Source of the DNA: Acidimicrobiia bacterium | GTDB lineage: Bacteria > Actinomycetota > Acidimicrobiia > IMCC26256 > PALSA-555 | DNA: 34,378 bases | Assembly: GCA_040881685.1 (NCBI GenBank) | Contig: JBBECS010000012.1 | Span: 1-34,378, forward strand | Reading direction: 5' to 3' | Shown: positions 24,682-31,693 of the stretch, in pieces | How the letters are laid out: each line of letters starts with the position of its first letter | Position numbering within the stretch: the first letter of the stretch is position 1 | Made by a program: the position numbers and the translations under genes | Notes under the pieces: generated by a model | Seen by the model: the letters and a program-made list of their open reading frames with translations, nothing else | Database searches by the model: none | Told to the model about the DNA's origin: nothing

Positions 24682-25938
24682 TCATGAAAGCTCGGGGTAG
24701 GGGGTGAACTTCGAGCAGAGCCGGCCGGCCGCATCCTTCACGTCGTCGGCCACGGCGGTGTCGTCGACGGCCCGCAGCACGTGGGCCAGGAGCGCCGCGA
24801 TCTCGACCATCTCGGGCTCGCCCATGCCCGCGGTGGTGACCGACGCGGTACCGAGCCGCAGGCCGCTCGTGACGAACGGCTTCTCGGGGTCGTTCGGGAT
24901 CGTGTTCTTGTTGGTCGTGATCCCCGCTCGATCGAGCGCCTCCTGCGCGACCTTGCCGGTCACGCCAAACGGTCGGAGGTCGACGAGCATGAGGTGGTTG
25001 TCGGTGCCGCCCGACACGATGCGGAACCCCTCGGCGGTGAGCGCGTCGGCCAGCGCTGCGGCGTTGCGAACGATCTGCGCCACGTAGTCCCGGAACTCAG
25101 GCCGCATCGCTTCGAGGAAGGCCACCGCCTTGGCTGCGATCACGTGCATGAGCGGGCCACCTTGAAGGCCCGGGAACACGCTCTTGTCGATCGCGGCCGC
25201 GTACTGCTCGCGACACAGGATCGCGCCGGCCCGCGGCCCGCGGAGAGTCTTGTGCGTGGTCAACGTGACCACATCCGCGTGCGGGACGGGCGAAGGGTGC
25301 GCTCCACCGGCGACGAGTCCCGCGATGTGCGCCGCGTCGACCAGCAGGAGCGCGCCAACCTCATCGGCCACGGCGCGGAAGGCCTCGAAGTCGATGACCC
25401 GGGGGTACGCCGTCGCGCCCGCCACGATCATCTTCGGCTTGCACTCGCGCGCGATCCGCGCCATCGCGTCGTAGTCGAGGAGCTCCGTGGCATCGTCGAG
25501 GCCGTAGCCCACGAAGTTGAACAGCTTGGCCGAGAAGTTGGGGGCAGCGCCGTGGGTCAGATGACCGCCCTGGTCGAGGGGCATGCCCATGACCGTGTCG
25601 CCCGGCTCGAGAAGTGCGAAGTACGCCGCCATGTTGGCGTTGGCGCCGGAATGGGGCTGGACGTTGGCGTGCTCGGCTCCGAAGAGCTCGCACGCTCGTT
25701 GGCGGGCCAGTTCCTCGGCATCGTCGACGACGTAGTTGCCGCCGTAGTACCGCTTCCGTGGATATCCCTCCGAGTACTTGTTGGTCAGCACAGAACCCTG
25801 CGCCGCGAGCACGGCGAGCGACGTGAAGTTCTCGGACGCGATCAGCTGGATCGTCGTGTTGAGCCGTTCGACCTCGCGACGGATGACGTCGGCGATCTCC
25901 GGGTCGGTGGCCTCGAGTGCCTCAGATGGAGTGGTCAC
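24682..25938 (-). CDS. glyA: Serine hydroxymethyltransferase
   Basis: 418 aa. Interconverts serine and glycine with transfer of a one-carbon unit to tetrahydrofolate. [29 protein letters not shown] (D201) and the PLP-binding lysine K230 in [12 protein letters not shown] are all present, as is GQQGGP-like [11 protein letters not shown] 25938 is chosen over ATG 25944 because it has AGAGGA at proper spacing and overlaps the rpiB stop as GTGA. The rpiB-glyA order before wecA and atp recalls the Firmicute arrangement, where glyA also precedes the atp operon. Confidence 0.98.
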
Positions 25939-26384
25939 GCGCATTCCTCTTGTTCGATGGCCTTGATCTGCTCGATGCGCGGGATGTGGCGACCCCCCTC
26001 GAACTCGGTTTCGAACCACGTGCGCACGATGTCGTCGGCAAGTGCCACACCGACGACCCGGGCCCCGATCGAGAGCACGTTGGCGTCGTTGTGCAGTCGA
26101 GAGTACCGAGCTGTGTACAGGTCGTTGCACAGGGCGGCGCGCACCCCATGGACCTTGTTGGCTGCGATCTGCTCACCTTGGCCGCTGCCGCCCAGCACGA
26201 TGCCACGTTCGACCCGGCCGGCACCGACCTCCCTGGCCACGGCGGCGCAGATCGGTGGGTAGTCGACCGGCTCCTCACTCGTCGTCCCGAGGTCGGTCAC
26301 GTCGTGGCCGTCAGCCGCGAGGCGATCCTTCAGGTGCTCCTTGAGGGTGAAGCCGGCATGGTCGGAGCCGATCGCGATGCGCAT
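25935..26384 (-). CDS. rpiB: Ribose-5-phosphate isomerase B
   Basis: 149 aa. Isomerises ribose-5-phosphate and ribulose-5-phosphate in the pentose phosphate pathway. [10 protein letters not shown] at the N-terminus, the phosphate/base loop [20 protein letters not shown] (65-84), and [15 protein letters not shown] are diagnostic. The catalytic Cys of E. coli RpiB is absent; instead E71 in SGQGEQ matches the actinobacterial (mycobacterial) form, where a Glu acts as base. It is the first gene of rpiB-glyA-wecA. Its promoter probably includes TACACT on the minus strand (26440-26435). Confidence 0.96.
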
Positions 26385-26497: not shown

Positions 26498-28030
26498 GTG
26501 AGGTTCCCCGATGAGTCGAGCGCGCTCGAGGAGCCGATCCCGAAGGTCGCGCCGTGGTTGCTCAGCGCCGCCGACACGTTGTGCGCTCGCAGGCTCCACT
26601 CCGAGTTCACGTGTGTTCCCGGGACGAAGGATCCCTTCAACCGCGGGCGCTTGCGTGAGGTGCTGATCGACGCCGTCCGCACGTTGCACGCAACCGGGAG
26701 CATCCCGCCGACGCCCTCACATCTCGAGCCCGAAGAGCAACGCGTGCTCGAGCACGCGCTCTCGTGGTACCCACGGCTCTTCGAAGGGATCGCTGATGCG
26801 ACGGTCGAGTCACCGATCGCCGAGCCGACCGAGCTCCCCCGGCGTGGCGTACGCCTCGGCGGCTGGGTGGACCTGTGCGTCGTGAGCGCCGCGGGTGGAC
26901 GAGAGCTGCGTCAGCTCGCCTTTGGCGCGCGCGGCGCACCCGAGAGCCCACTCGATCTCCCCGCCATCCGCCTGGCGGTCCTCCGGCTTGCTCAGATGCA
27001 TTGGGTCGAGGACGAGACACTGACGGTCGTGTGGGCCGACGTGCTCCGGGGTGCGCGGCGCGAGACGTCGGTGCGCGTTCCCGACGACCTTGCTCCGATC
27101 GCGACCTGGCTCGACGAGCGCCTCGAGGTGGTCACGTCACGGATGGACGAGTCAGCTGCCGAACCGGGTCGCGACTGCACGACGTGCGGCTTCGTGCCGC
27201 GGTGCCCGGCGCACGAGCTGCGCGGCTCGATGACGAGCCGCAAGGCGGATCGCTTCCCCTCGATCCTCGTGCTGTCGCCGACCTCGCTCGACGCGTGGCG
27301 CCGGTGCCGACGCGAGCTCGGGAACCGCGCGTTGTCCATCCCGCCGAGTGACCCGGAAGGCGGCACGGCGCACGGGCTGTACTTGCACGACATCCTGCGG
27401 TTCGTCCACCAGCAGGGATCCTGCCGTGACGAGCAGCACGTCGCCGAGATCCTCGCCATGCACGGCGCCGACGAGCGCGTGGCCGACGAGATCCGCCGGC
27501 ATGTCACGAAGTGCCCGATCGACGCCGAGTCGGTCGGGCACGAGGTCGAGTGGGTGAGGACCAACCCCAAGCCACCGGTCTTCCTCGCCAGCGCTCGTCT
27601 GGACGCCGTGTGGCGCCGCGACGACGTGCTCGAGATCCGCGACTACAAGACCGGCCAACGCGCCGTCGAGATGACCGCCGACGATCCGCGGGCGCGGCTC
27701 CAGGGCTGGGTGGCCGCACCCCGCGCGGCCGCACTCGGTCTGCGGCTGCGCGTTCGCTACGAGCACCTGTCGCGCGAGGTCGACGAGGACCCCGAGCCGT
27801 GGGAGCCCGACGACGACGACCTCGCGCACGTCGACGAGGAGCTCCGGACGATGGTGGCCGAGATGCGGGCCGAGCGCGAGTGGCACGGTGTCGCCGACGA
27901 GACGATCTGCCGCTACTGCCGGTACCGCTCGATCTGCCCCGACAGCGCCGCCCCGAGCGAACCCGACTGGCCCGCGGTCACGGACCTCGCACTCGATGAA
28001 CTCGAGCTCGATGGCCTCGAAGATCTCTGA
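26498..28030 (+). CDS. Tandem RecB-family (PD-(D/E)XK) nuclease-like protein, N-half inactive
   Basis: 510 aa made of two homologous halves. The second half is a RecB/Cas4-like module: C270, a helix with HDILRFVH (297-304), D369 in ARLDAVW, D382 and K384 in EIRDYKTG, and C471-x2-C474-x5-C480, a four-Cys iron-sulfur cluster pattern. The first half repeats the layout (C29, D125 in GGWVDLCVV, C227-x2-C230-x5-C236). The spacing from first Cys to Cys cluster is nearly identical (198 versus 201), but Q139 and A141 replace the catalytic Asp and Lys. So one nuclease site is intact, one is lost, and both metal clusters are kept. A role in DNA repair or defence is inferred. It is isolated on + among minus-strand housekeeping genes and apparently leaderless. 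Confidence 0.85.
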   Translation: MRFPDESSALEEPIPKVAPWLLSAADTLCARRLHSEFTCVPGTKDPFNRGRLREVLIDAVRTLHATGSIPPTPSHLEPEEQRVLEHALSWYPRLFEGIADATVESPIAEPTELPRRGVRLGGWVDLCVVSAAGGRELRQLAFGARGAPESPLDLPAIRLAVLRLAQMHWVEDETLTVVWADVLRGARRETSVRVPDDLAPIATWLDERLEVVTSRMDESAAEPGRDCTTCGFVPRCPAHELRGSMTSRKADRFPSILVLSPTSLDAWRRCRRELGNRALSIPPSDPEGGTAHGLYLHDILRFVHQQGSCRDEQHVAEILAMHGADERVADEIRRHVTKCPIDAESVGHEVEWVRTNPKPPVFLASARLDAVWRRDDVLEIRDYKTGQRAVEMTADDPRARLQGWVAAPRAAALGLRLRVRYEHLSREVDEDPEPWEPDDDDLAHVDEELRTMVAEMRAEREWHGVADETICRYCRYRSICPDSAAPSEPDWPAVTDLALDELELDGLEDL

Positions 28031-28032
28031 TG

Positions 28033-28257
28033 CTACGCAGCGGTGGGACGGAGATCGATCTCGAGGGTGAGCACGCCGTCGATGAACTCCCAGGACGCGT
28101 CGCCGATCATGGCAAAGTCCTGGTAGTCGAGCTCGGCCTGGGCGATGAGCTTCTGGCGCTCCGGACCCGCCACTGGGGGCAGCGGACGCTCGCGCACCGA
28201 CGCGGCGCGGTCGCGGAATCGCTCGAGCATCGCATCGACATCGAGATCGTCGGCCAT
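28033..28257 (-). CDS. Small acidic protein of unknown function downstream of prmC
   Basis: 74 aa, MADDLDVDAMLERFRDRAAS at the start and a C-terminal beta-like segment (ASWEFIDGVLTLEIDLRPT). The ATG has a strong GGAGGGGGA about six bases upstream; the longer open frame upstream shadows prmC. It is soluble, with no motif I recognise. It follows prmC by 34 nt on the same strand and ends 2 nt from the convergent RecB-like gene. It occupies part of the slot where a Sua5/YrdC gene often lies in actinobacteria, but is far too short to be one. Confidence 0.7.
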   Translation of the reverse strand: MADDLDVDAMLERFRDRAASVRERPLPPVAGPERQKLIAQAELDYQDFAMIGDASWEFIDGVLTLEIDLRPTAA

Positions 28258-28291
28258 CACAGGTCCCCCTCCCCTTCGTGCGCGGTGGATG

Positions 28292-29230
28292 TCACTGTAC
28301 GTGCGCGACCAAGACGCGGTCCCGATCGGTGAGATCCCGCTCGACGACGACGTCGACGAGGCCGGCATCGCGCGCCAGACCTCGCGCCTCGTCCGACTGG
28401 TGTGGCGCGAGCTCGACCACGAGCGCGCCTCCCGGCTCGAGCCACTGTGGCGCAGCGGTGACGATGCAGGCGATCGCCTCGAGCCCGGTGGGGCCGCTCA
28501 CGAGCGCGAGGCGCGGCTCGTGATCGACGACCTCGCGCGGCAGCTGGTCGAGCTCGGCTTCCGCGACGTACGGCGGGTTGGTGACCACGACACGGACGTT
28601 GCCCCGTAGACGGTCCGGCAGCGCGGCGAACCACTCGCCATGAGCCAGGCGCATTCGGGTGGCACCCGCCCCTGCGCCGGCGAGGTTGGCGCGAGCCACA
28701 GCCAACGCGTCCTCGCTCGCGTCGGTGGCCCAGAACTCGGCATCCGGGAGCTCGGCCGCAAGCGCGAGCGCGATCGCGCCGGAGCCGGTACCGAGATCCA
28801 CCACTGTGTACTCACCGTTCGCACCGGTCCACGGATTCGCGTGCCCGCGGCGAGCGCCGAGACGGCGTGCGATGTCGATCGCGACCTGGGCGGTCACCTC
28901 GGTCTCGGGTCGCGGGATCAGCACACGCTGGTCCACGAACAGATCGATGCCGCGGAACTCCCACTCCCCCAGCACGTACTGGAGCGGCTCGCCGGCCACG
29001 CGCCGCTCCACCATCCTCGCCACCCGCGTGGCCACCGCCTCGGTCGCGGGTTGGTCTTGGGCAGCCAGGAGATCCGCACCGCGCCGGCCCGACGCGGTCT
29101 CGACGATCCAGCGGGCCTCGGTGGCTGCCGACGCCAATCCCGCCGTTGCGAGTTGCGACTCCACCTCCCTGCGGAGCTGTTGCCAAGTTCTCTCGCTCGG
29201 CGCGTCTGAGTTGAACAGTGCCTGCTTCAC
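28292..29230 (-). CDS. prmC: Release factor glutamine methyltransferase PrmC
   Basis: 312 aa. Methylates the glutamine of the GGQ motif in release factors. The N-terminal helical domain leads to GEPLQYVLGEWEFRG and VLIPRPETE. The SAM motif is DLGTGSG (145-151) and the substrate motif NPPY (218-221). The GTG start overlaps the prfA stop as GTGA. The partner release factor is therefore made immediately upstream, the usual arrangement. Confidence 0.97.
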   Translation of the reverse strand: MKQALFNSDAPSERTWQQLRREVESQLATAGLASAATEARWIVETASGRRGADLLAAQDQPATEAVATRVARMVERRVAGEPLQYVLGEWEFRGIDLFVDQRVLIPRPETEVTAQVAIDIARRLGARRGHANPWTGANGEYTVVDLGTGSGAIALALAAELPDAEFWATDASEDALAVARANLAGAGAGATRMRLAHGEWFAALPDRLRGNVRVVVTNPPYVAEAELDQLPREVVDHEPRLALVSGPTGLEAIACIVTAAPQWLEPGGALVVELAPHQSDEARGLARDAGLVDVVVERDLTDRDRVLVAHVQ

Positions 29231-30306
29231 GCTTCGCCGAGCTGCTCTTCTCGTTCGGCCGCGGCGAGCGCGTCGACGATCACGTCGAGGTCATCGCCGC
29301 CGGCGAGGACCCGGTCGAGCGTGACCGTCACCTTCACCCGGTGGTCGGTGACCCGGTTCTCCTTGAAGTTGTACGTGCGGATCTTCTCGGAGCGCCCGCC
29401 CCCTTTGACCTGCTCGCGACGAGCCGATGACATCTCAGCCTCGTGGCGCTCGCGCTCCTCCTGGAGCAGCCGCGATCGAAGGATGCGCAGCGCCTTGTCC
29501 TTGTTCTGGAGCTGGCTCTTCTCGTCCTGGCATGTGACGACCAGGCCAGTCGGCTTGTGCGTGATGCGAACCGCCGAGTCGGTCGTGTTGACCGACTGGC
29601 CGCCGGGACCACTCGAGCGGAACACGTCGATCTCGAGGTCCGATGGCGCGATTTCGATGTCCACCTCTTCTGCCTCCGGCAGGACGGCAACCGTGGCCGC
29701 GCTGGTGTGCACCCGACCCTGGCTTTCGGTGACGGGCACGCGCTGCACCCGGTGCGGGCCGGCCTCGTACTTGAGGCGCGCCCACGCGTCCGGCCCCTTG
29801 GCCACGAGCGTCACCTCGCGCAGTCCCCCCATGTCGGACGGCTGGCTGGAGAGGGTCTCCACCTTCCATCCCCGCCGCTTGGCGAGCCCCTCGTACATCT
29901 GAAAGAGATCGCGGGCCCAGAGGTTTGCCTCCTCGCCACCCTCTGCGCCTCGGATCTCGATGATGACGTTGCGGCCGTCGTTCGGGTCACGCGGCACGAG
30001 CAGCTCTTTGAGCTGCGCTTCCAACTCCTCCAGGCGAGCTTCCTTCTCGATGACCTCCGTGCGCAGGAAGGCCTGCATGTCTTGTTCGCCTTCGGCGGCG
30101 GACTCCTTCGCGAGCATCTCGCGCGCCTCTGCTAGTTCCGATTCGGTCGCGCGGTAGTCGCGGTAAGCATCGACGACCGGCTTGAGCTCTGCGTGACGGC
30201 GACCCGCCTCGCGCGACGCCGCCTGGTCACCCGACGCGTAGATCTCGGGCAGGCGCGACTCGAGCTTCTCCAGCTCGGTCTCGAAGTCGGGAAGGTGCTC
30301 GAACAC
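29227..30306 (-). CDS. prfA: Peptide chain release factor 1
   Basis: 359 aa from GTG 30306. Recognises UAA/UAG and triggers peptide release. The codon-reading tripeptide is P-V-T (191-193), which marks RF1 rather than RF2. GGQ is at 235-237 in SSGPGGQSVNTTDSAVRITH. The usual length of about 360 supports this start; the open frame further upstream runs over the end of the DUF1501 gene. No Shine-Dalgarno sequence is present, but TACCCT plus six bases precede the GTG, so the mRNA is probably leaderless. Confidence 0.97.
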   Translation of the reverse strand: MFEHLPDFETELEKLESRLPEIYASGDQAASREAGRRHAELKPVVDAYRDYRATESELAEAREMLAKESAAEGEQDMQAFLRTEVIEKEARLEELEAQLKELLVPRDPNDGRNVIIEIRGAEGGEEANLWARDLFQMYEGLAKRRGWKVETLSSQPSDMGGLREVTLVAKGPDAWARLKYEAGPHRVQRVPVTESQGRVHTSAATVAVLPEAEEVDIEIAPSDLEIDVFRSSGPGGQSVNTTDSAVRITHKPTGLVVTCQDEKSQLQNKDKALRILRSRLLQEERERHEAEMSSARREQVKGGGRSEKIRTYNFKENRVTDHRVKVTVTLDRVLAGGDDLDVIVDALAAAEREEQLGEA

Positions 30307-30312
30307 GCACCC

Positions 30313-30318
30313 AGGGTA
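30313..30318 (-). promoter_or_regulatory. Leaderless -10 box (TACCCT) for prfA
   Basis: TACCCT on the minus strand (30318-30313), exactly six bases, then GTG 30306. This matches the arrangement at 26486 and resembles that at 8967. It gives prfA-prmC a promoter independent of the DUF1501 operon that ends 43 nt upstream. Confidence 0.55.
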
Positions 30319-30349
30319 TCGACCTGTCTCGGTCGCTCTCGTCGCCGCG

Positions 30350-31693
30350 CTACTCGAACATGGGAAATGCCTTGTAGTCATCGCCGAGGACAGGAGTGGT
30401 GTCCTCGACACCGAGCCAACGCAAACCACTCGCGTAGTGCCGACGGAAGTCGTCGGTGTGACGAAGGTTTCCGTCCTCATCCAGGTGTGTCAGCGAGGCT
30501 GGCTCGCCGTAGCGACCGCCCTTCACCTTCGGACCGACCACGAAATGAACATTGGCCGTGCCGTGGTCGGTGCCGCTGCCGTTCTCTTGCGGACGGCGCC
30601 CGAACTCCGACACCGTCATGAGCACGACCCTGTCCGCGACCTGCTGGTCGGCGCTCTTGTCGAGCGCAGAGAAGAAGCCGTCGATGCCCTCGTCGAGCTG
30701 TTCGAGCAGGACGGGATGACGCTCGGCCTGGCCTTGATGCGTGTCGAAGTCGCCAACGCCGTTGATGTACACGATGCGCGGTCGAGCCGGTGACTGCACC
30801 AGCTCTGCCGCGAGCAGCAGCGAGTCGCCAACGCTCGTGTCCTGGTATCCAGGCCTTCCAGGTCCCCGCTCCGCGCGCGACGTCGGTGATCGTGCTGCAC
30901 TCGATTCCGGCTCCAGGGAATGGTCAAGCTTCGTGCGAGCCTTCACGGTGAGGCCGACCGCGCGCTGCACCTGGCCGACGAGGGTCGTTGTGTCCACGTG
31001 CGCGGGCTTGACGTCACTCCAGGCCGCGATGAGGTCATCGACGTCCTGCCCTGTCGAGTCCAGCCACGCCGGCACACGGGGCTGGAGACCGCTGGCGTCG
31101 GCGATCGTGGTGGCGAACGACGCACGCCCGATGAGCGCGGGCGACGGCCCGGGTCCGATGCTGATCGCGGCGAGCGGATCGTCGAAGCCCACGGTGCCAT
31201 CGAGATAGGCGCCGAGCCATCCTCCGCCGCCGGTACCGCCCTTCGCTGACCACCAGATCGCGAACGACCCGAAGTGCGAGAGGTCGGCGTCGTCGTATCC
31301 AAGTCCCTCGATGACGGCCACGTGCCCGTTCCCGTACCGGCTCGCCAGCTTCGGAAGGCTTGGGTGCAAGCCGACCTCGCCGTCGAGATCGATGGCGTCG
31401 GTGACTCCCAGCGTGGGGCGCAGGTCGCGGTAGCGACCGTCCTGGAGGGGCACGACCGTGTTGAGCCCATCGTTGCCGCCGCCCAGCTCCACGATGACGA
31501 GCGTGTGACCATTCGTGTCGGCGTTGACCTGGCCGACGCGCGTCGACGCGGCAGCGGGCGTGTCACCCAGCTTCCCCTCCGAAAGCCCGCCCCACACCGA
31601 CAGCCCGTACCCCGCGCCGACAGCGGTCGCGGTGCCGACGCCGAGCCGGCGGAGGAAGTCGCGCCGCGAAGGGTGCTTGGAGGCGGAAGTCAT
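30350..31693 (-). CDS. DUF1501 family protein, Tat-exported
   Basis: 447 aa. Twin-arginine signal at the N-terminus (S-R-R-D-F-L, arginines 10-11, then a hydrophobic stretch), so it is exported folded. LVIVELGGGNDGLNTVVPLQDGRY is the family hallmark, followed by HPSLPKL, DTHQGQAERH and VLMTVSEFGRRPQENGSGTDHGTANVHFVVG. DUF1501 proteins have an alkaline-phosphatase-like (sulfatase-type) core; the FGR and DHG elements here fit that, though the substrate is unknown. It overlaps the DUF1800 gene by 4 nt (ATGA), a pair conserved across many phyla. Confidence 0.9.
   Translation of the reverse strand: MTSASKHPSRRDFLRRLGVGTATAVGAGYGLSVWGGLSEGKLGDTPAAASTRVGQVNADTNGHTLVIVELGGGNDGLNTVVPLQDGRYRDLRPTLGVTDAIDLDGEVGLHPSLPKLASRYGNGHVAVIEGLGYDDADLSHFGSFAIWWSAKGGTGGGGWLGAYLDGTVGFDDPLAAISIGPGPSPALIGRASFATTIADASGLQPRVPAWLDSTGQDVDDLIAAWSDVKPAHVDTTTLVGQVQRAVGLTVKARTKLDHSLEPESSAARSPTSRAERGPGRPGYQDTSVGDSLLLAAELVQSPARPRIVYINGVGDFDTHQGQAERHPVLLEQLDEGIDGFFSALDKSADQQVADRVVLMTVSEFGRRPQENGSGTDHGTANVHFVVGPKVKGGRYGEPASLTHLDEDGNLRHTDDFRRHYASGLRWLGVEDTTPVLGDDYKAFPMFE

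Follow-up and report, generated by a model that had tools for sequence, protein, structure and literature searches.

A predicted pseudonuclease and nuclease of the iron-staple type, fused in one actinobacterial protein and encoded by adjacent genes in most of its relatives

A 34,378-nucleotide stretch of DNA from an Acidimicrobiia bacterium (contig JBBECS010000012.1 of assembly GCA_040881685.1; hereafter the window) encodes a 510-residue protein in which two nuclease folds of the RecB type stand in tandem, the first without its catalytic residues and the second with them. This combination of a dead and a live fold is near certain. Its most likely ancestor is an old enzyme of two subunits, a dead and a live iron-staple nuclease. 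The gene, its domains and residues, and its neighbors are as follows (positions in the window, strand, feature):

26498..28030, + strand: fused dead-plus-live iron-staple nuclease gene; GTG start, 510 aa
26498..27205, + strand: N domain, residues 1-236, a RecB/Cas4-type fold without catalytic residues (Pfam, AlphaFold2, structural matches)
26582..26584, + strand: C29, first Cys of the N-domain staple; invariant in 33/33
26912..26920, + strand: Q139-L140-A141, degenerate motif III of the N domain, opposite D382-Y383-K384
27176..27205, + strand: C227-x2-C230-x5-C236, C-terminal Cys triad of the N-domain staple; invariant in 33/33
27206..27265, + strand: inter-domain linker, residues 237-256, site of the stop/start junction in split relatives
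27266..28027, + strand: C domain, residues 257-510, an active-type PD-(D/E)XK nuclease (PDDEXK_1 best over 259-481)
27305..27307, + strand: C270, first Cys of the C-domain staple; invariant in 38/38
27386..27388, + strand: H297, motif I histidine; invariant in 38/38
27407..27514, + strand: H304, C309, H335 and C339, four more Cys/His positions of the C domain (helical part); invariant in 38/38
27602..27649, + strand: D369, D382 and K384, catalytic motifs II/III (from C-half conservation)
27908..27937, + strand: C471-x2-C474-x5-C480, C-terminal Cys triad of the C-domain staple; invariant in 38/38
25935..26384, - strand: rpiB, conserved left neighbor, divergent, with glyA beyond
28033..30480, - strand: conserved right neighbors, convergent: a small 111-aa ORF, prmC and prfA

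The presence of two RecB-type folds in one protein, as proposed by the first-pass annotation of this DNA, is supported by Pfam searches, profile comparison and predicted structures. The Pfam model PDDEXK_1 (PF12705) matched the whole protein, most strongly its C half, at an E-value of 1.8e-17, and the isolated N half at 0.002; of the N-half relatives taken individually it matched 6 of 33, the best at 7.4e-6. BLASTP of the N half against the C half detected no significant similarity (E 0.48), and since the repeat is hidden from this method, comparison of profiles and folds was required. Using hhalign, the N-half and C-half families were aligned with an E-value of 9.5e-6 over 220 columns, with Q139 placed opposite D382 and A141 opposite K384. 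A phmmer search of the protein against PDB sequences returned nothing useful. AlphaFold2 modeled the N half alone with a pLDDT of 92 and the whole chain with a pLDDT of 91 and a pTM of 0.88, the latter from an alignment (A3) that misplaces the last Cys motif in the rows of split N halves, a fault from which the N-only alignment (A1) is free. The N-half model resembled the nuclease domain of AdnA (Z 14.3, 4.8 Å over 224 residues), ACE1 (Z 14.0) and AddB (Z 10.1), and the C half, taken within the full model, resembled the AdnA nuclease domain (Z 15.5) and ACE1 (Z 14.9). The first half thus matches the PD-(D/E)XK fold; a mismatch, which had been named beforehand as a refuting outcome, did not occur.

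The residues that distinguish the two halves are likewise as first described. All positions of the two four-Cys layouts (C29/227/230/236 and C270/471/474/480) were verified in the 510-aa ORF; their spacing is near-equal and both end in CxxCx5C. The nuclease residues D369, D382 and K384 were confirmed in the second half only, with Q139 and A141 at the catalytic positions of the first, consistent with the profile alignment. Seven columns are invariant across the 33 N halves (C29, E79, Y91, R138, C227, C230 and C236), four of them being the Cys quartet, and the quartet of the C half is invariant in 38 of 38; loss of the cysteines in homologues, the other adverse outcome named beforehand, was therefore not observed. 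The complete D/(D/E)/K set occurs in 0 of the 33 N halves. At position 139, Q, L, I, K, S or M predominate; at position 141, R, A, D, Q, L or S; and in the column of I57, the N-domain counterpart of H297, L, E, I, T, R or S. H-D-(D/E)-K is present in all 38 C halves, with H297, D369 and K384 invariant and position 382 occupied by D in 37 and by E in one. Conservation thus supports a dead first site and an intact second one, and the N halves also diverge faster (median distance 0.68 vs 0.51). With its cysteines invariant and its catalytic positions free to vary, the N half has been preserved for its fold and staple and not as a nuclease; judged by its sequence, it is a pseudonuclease fold.

In iron-staple nuclease domains, exemplified by AddB, Dna2, Bad and Cas4, four cysteines span the RecB-type domain (PMC7430649). 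Four conserved cysteines span the whole domain in both halves of the window protein. Of the earlier claim of two Fe-S clusters, the two four-Cys signatures are upheld and Fe-S binding itself is a prediction. The C domain carries a further set of invariant residues in its helical part (H304, C309, H335 and C339), a candidate for an extra metal (zinc) site. This idea is tentative because H304 has an N-half counterpart, H64, which is found in 27 of 33 sequences. The outgroup C halves of L091 and L092 have a His near the place of C309.

Relatives of the window organism encode the two halves either as one gene or as two. The protein was found in 41 of 80 relatives searched, and fused homologues are 43-70% identical to it. 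About half of these 80 genomes, some of them incomplete, yielded no pair, so an essential role throughout the order is improbable. Both halves were mapped in 35 relatives: 11 encode them in a single ORF and 24 in two adjacent ORFs, N then C. The 24 include one genome (L039, G019:C1:178857-180349) whose fused-type gene has an apparent frameshift within the N half, possibly a sequencing error, leaving the second part of that half in frame with the C half. A 4-bp overlap (ATGA, GTGA or TTGA) joins the N-gene stop codon to the C-gene start codon in 12 of the 24 split pairs, a count that omits the overlap in L039, which arises from the frameshifted frame. For two additional pairs (L060 and L062), the N half escaped BLAST and was recovered by profile (HMM). 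The split arrangement occurs in most families of the window's order, and Actinobacteria bacterium IMCC26256 (CP011489.1) has a split pair; the fused arrangement occurs in the window's own family and a few neighboring ones. Split pairs extend beyond the order: one genome (L067) belongs to a different family of the class, and three (L091, L092 and L093) belong to one family outside the class; by eye, the motif III Lys is absent from the N halves of L091 and L092. A contig titled as a Bifidobacterium breve MAG (CAMDCC010000232.1; L103) carries a fused nuclease whose C half is 77% identical to that of the window; the title looks like that of a mislabeled MAG.

In a phylogenetic tree, the N halves form one clade (100/96) and the C halves another (97/88), and single-domain RecB-family proteins fall outside both; the tree is midpoint-rooted only, and does not prove N and C to be mutual closest relatives. 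In a concatenated marker tree, most fused forms, together with L034 and L039, fall in one weak clade (78) that lies among split forms, and one fused genome (L049) falls elsewhere, so that one or two fusions are possible. Distances among N halves correlate with those among C halves beyond the marker-gene control (partial r 0.71), as calculated over 232 non-independent pairs of linked genes. The simplest reading of these sequences is that the gene is an old two-gene pair that was fused once or twice, and such a fusion is likely. The protein had first been described as internally duplicated; its origin is probably the fusion of adjacent paralogous genes, as suggested by the 24 split forms among 35, the two pairs found by HMM and the four genomes outside the order. 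Fusion of neighboring genes is classical evidence that their products function jointly.

The locus is conserved throughout the order as glyA-rpiB / nuclease / prmC-prfA, with the flanking genes on the opposite strand. This synteny indicates a stable chromosomal locus and not an insertion: the description of a gene inserted against the flow of housekeeping genes is correct as to strand and is rejected as to insertion. The fused gene had no match in phage and plasmid collections, leaving a mobile-element origin unsupported. A leaderless start, also proposed at first, is possible; the analysis covered aligned upstream regions of three genomes of the same genus. The gene is monocistronic in this window, as initially noted, and not in relatives, where the two-gene form is followed by thiolase-like and DUF983 genes. 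These genes (the former with TLP1_add_C) lie directly downstream in many relatives (e.g. L033:5952-7842) and are absent from the window. A small ORF (28033-28368, - strand) overlaps prmC and is about 53-84% identical in relatives; it matched no Pfam family. The neighbors glyA, rpiB, prmC, prfA and the thiolase-like and DUF983 genes give no hint of a role in DNA repair.

Among the closest structural relatives of both halves are parts of larger machines. The nuclease domain of AdnA, from mycobacterial AdnAB (PDB 9np6, 7sjr, 6ppr), has a RecB-type fold like both halves and is the best or near-best structural match, and the nuclease domain of AddB, from AddAB (4ceh, 4cej), shares this fold. The four-Cys iron staple is likewise present in AddB (PMC7430649). 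Both AdnA and AddB are joined to an SF1 helicase or helicase-like domain, whereas the window protein is helicase-free and one of its domains is dead; as the first-pass annotation had stated, domain searches found no helicase family in the protein, and no SF1 helicase was found among the identified neighbors. AddA and AddB each contain a nuclease. The arrangement had been likened to AddB/AddA or to DNA-threading pseudonuclease domains, and its inactive-plus-active character stands; RecB/RecC is a better analogue than AddB/AddA, because the nuclease-like domain of RecC is dead (PMC1185551). That C-terminal domain of RecC is a homologue of the RecB nuclease that lacks catalytic features and forms a hoop for single-stranded DNA (PMC1185551), thus placing a dead RecB-type domain beside a live one, as in the window protein. 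RecC differs in being part of a three-subunit helicase-nuclease, whereas the live partner here is motorless; the dead domain of the window protein, unlike that of RecC, also retains its full Cys quartet, and its dead and live halves are either fused or encoded by adjacent genes.

Stand-alone RecB-type nucleases offer a second comparison. Cas4 and ACE1, the latter of the Argonaute-associated Cas4 family (PDB 9iac, 9iab, 4ic1), are proteins of about 200-270 aa; the window protein differs in that its nuclease is paired with a dead copy and that no cas or argonaute gene is present among its identified neighbors, which are housekeeping genes and not cas1/cas2. The Cas4 model TIGR00372 matched 18 of 38 C halves (best E 9.6e-7), the window's own not among them, and the Cas4 model PF01930 fell below cut-off against the window protein (E 0.26). 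The same genome contains a single-domain RecB-family nuclease (L100, G000:C1:44160-44891), which may resemble mycobacterial Rv2119. It is like the window protein in its PDDEXK_1 domain and CxxCx5C motif, and differs in having a single domain and in falling outside the N and C clades. An AddAB/AdnAB-type pair is encoded elsewhere in the genome (L139:1759-9266, G000:C9), comprising a 1099-aa protein with UvrD-helicase and PDDEXK_1 domains and a 1403-aa PDDEXK_1 protein, the latter with similarity to AddB and with the nuclease domain as its only Pfam match. Given this separate pair, the window gene is an addition to the end-resection machine and not a replacement for it.

We favor, with some confidence, a reading of the fused pair as a single-chain pseudo-heterodimer, in which the dead N domain acts by binding or threading DNA and positions a strand for cleavage by the C domain. 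The sequence, the predicted folds, the residue conservation, the fused and split forms and the synteny are established; the mechanism is proposed. Each Cys quartet would bind an Fe-S cluster that holds its own domain together, and the two domains would pack against each other. On the pattern of RecC's dead nuclease-like domain, the N domain would bind DNA or let it thread through, and would present a single strand to the C domain for metal-dependent cleavage. Without a motor, the enzyme may act on DNA ends, flaps or repair intermediates, beside the AddAB/AdnAB-type helicase-nuclease of the genome. It is from the RecC precedent that we infer that the N domain holds or guides DNA for the C domain, and by this analogy a DNA-guiding role is plausible.

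A simpler alternative to DNA guiding is that the N domain is a partner in folding and stability only, a dead paralogue that persists as an obligate dimerization subunit. We consider this rather unlikely. N halves diverge faster than C halves while their staple cysteines are invariant, as if the fold alone mattered, and a structural role is reported for iron-staple clusters (PMC7430649); against this, the invariant E79, Y91 and R138 suggest a further specific role, though they may be packing residues. Guiding and stabilization alike predict that the two proteins form a complex in split-gene species, and only guiding predicts contacts between the N domain and DNA. The full Cys quartet of a domain that does not cut could also point to an Fe-S cluster that senses redox state or DNA damage and gates the active C domain. 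Its retention does not demand sensing, given that the cysteines are also required to hold the fold, and such a sensor is improbable. Least probable of all is that the protein is a defense nuclease, akin to DruK or the Argonaute-associated Cas4 family, and not a repair enzyme: the PADLOC model for DruK matched the C domain (E 3e-7) and the fold is close to that of ACE1, yet housekeeping synteny is fixed across the order, the phage and plasmid collections gave no match and no defense gene is found among the identified neighbors.

No description of a helicase-free, paired dead/live Fe-S nuclease of the RecB type was found in the open-access subset of the literature. Tentatively, and against somewhat unfavorable odds, the pair may represent an undescribed actinobacterial two-subunit motorless nuclease, whose dead Fe-S subunit, by binding or reading DNA, determines the cutting site of the live subunit. 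If so, the fused and split lineages would constitute a natural experiment on how such pairs are assembled. RecB-type machines with a dead nuclease domain are known among large helicase complexes, such as RecBCD, where the domain lies in RecC; here, the pairing of dead and live domains is motorless, the dead partner retains its Cys staple and the pair exists both as one chain and as two. In so small a protein, the contribution of a dead RecB-type domain and the question of a purely structural Fe-S cluster within it become testable. The gene also adds a probable DNA-processing enzyme to an actinobacterial group known mostly from metagenomes.
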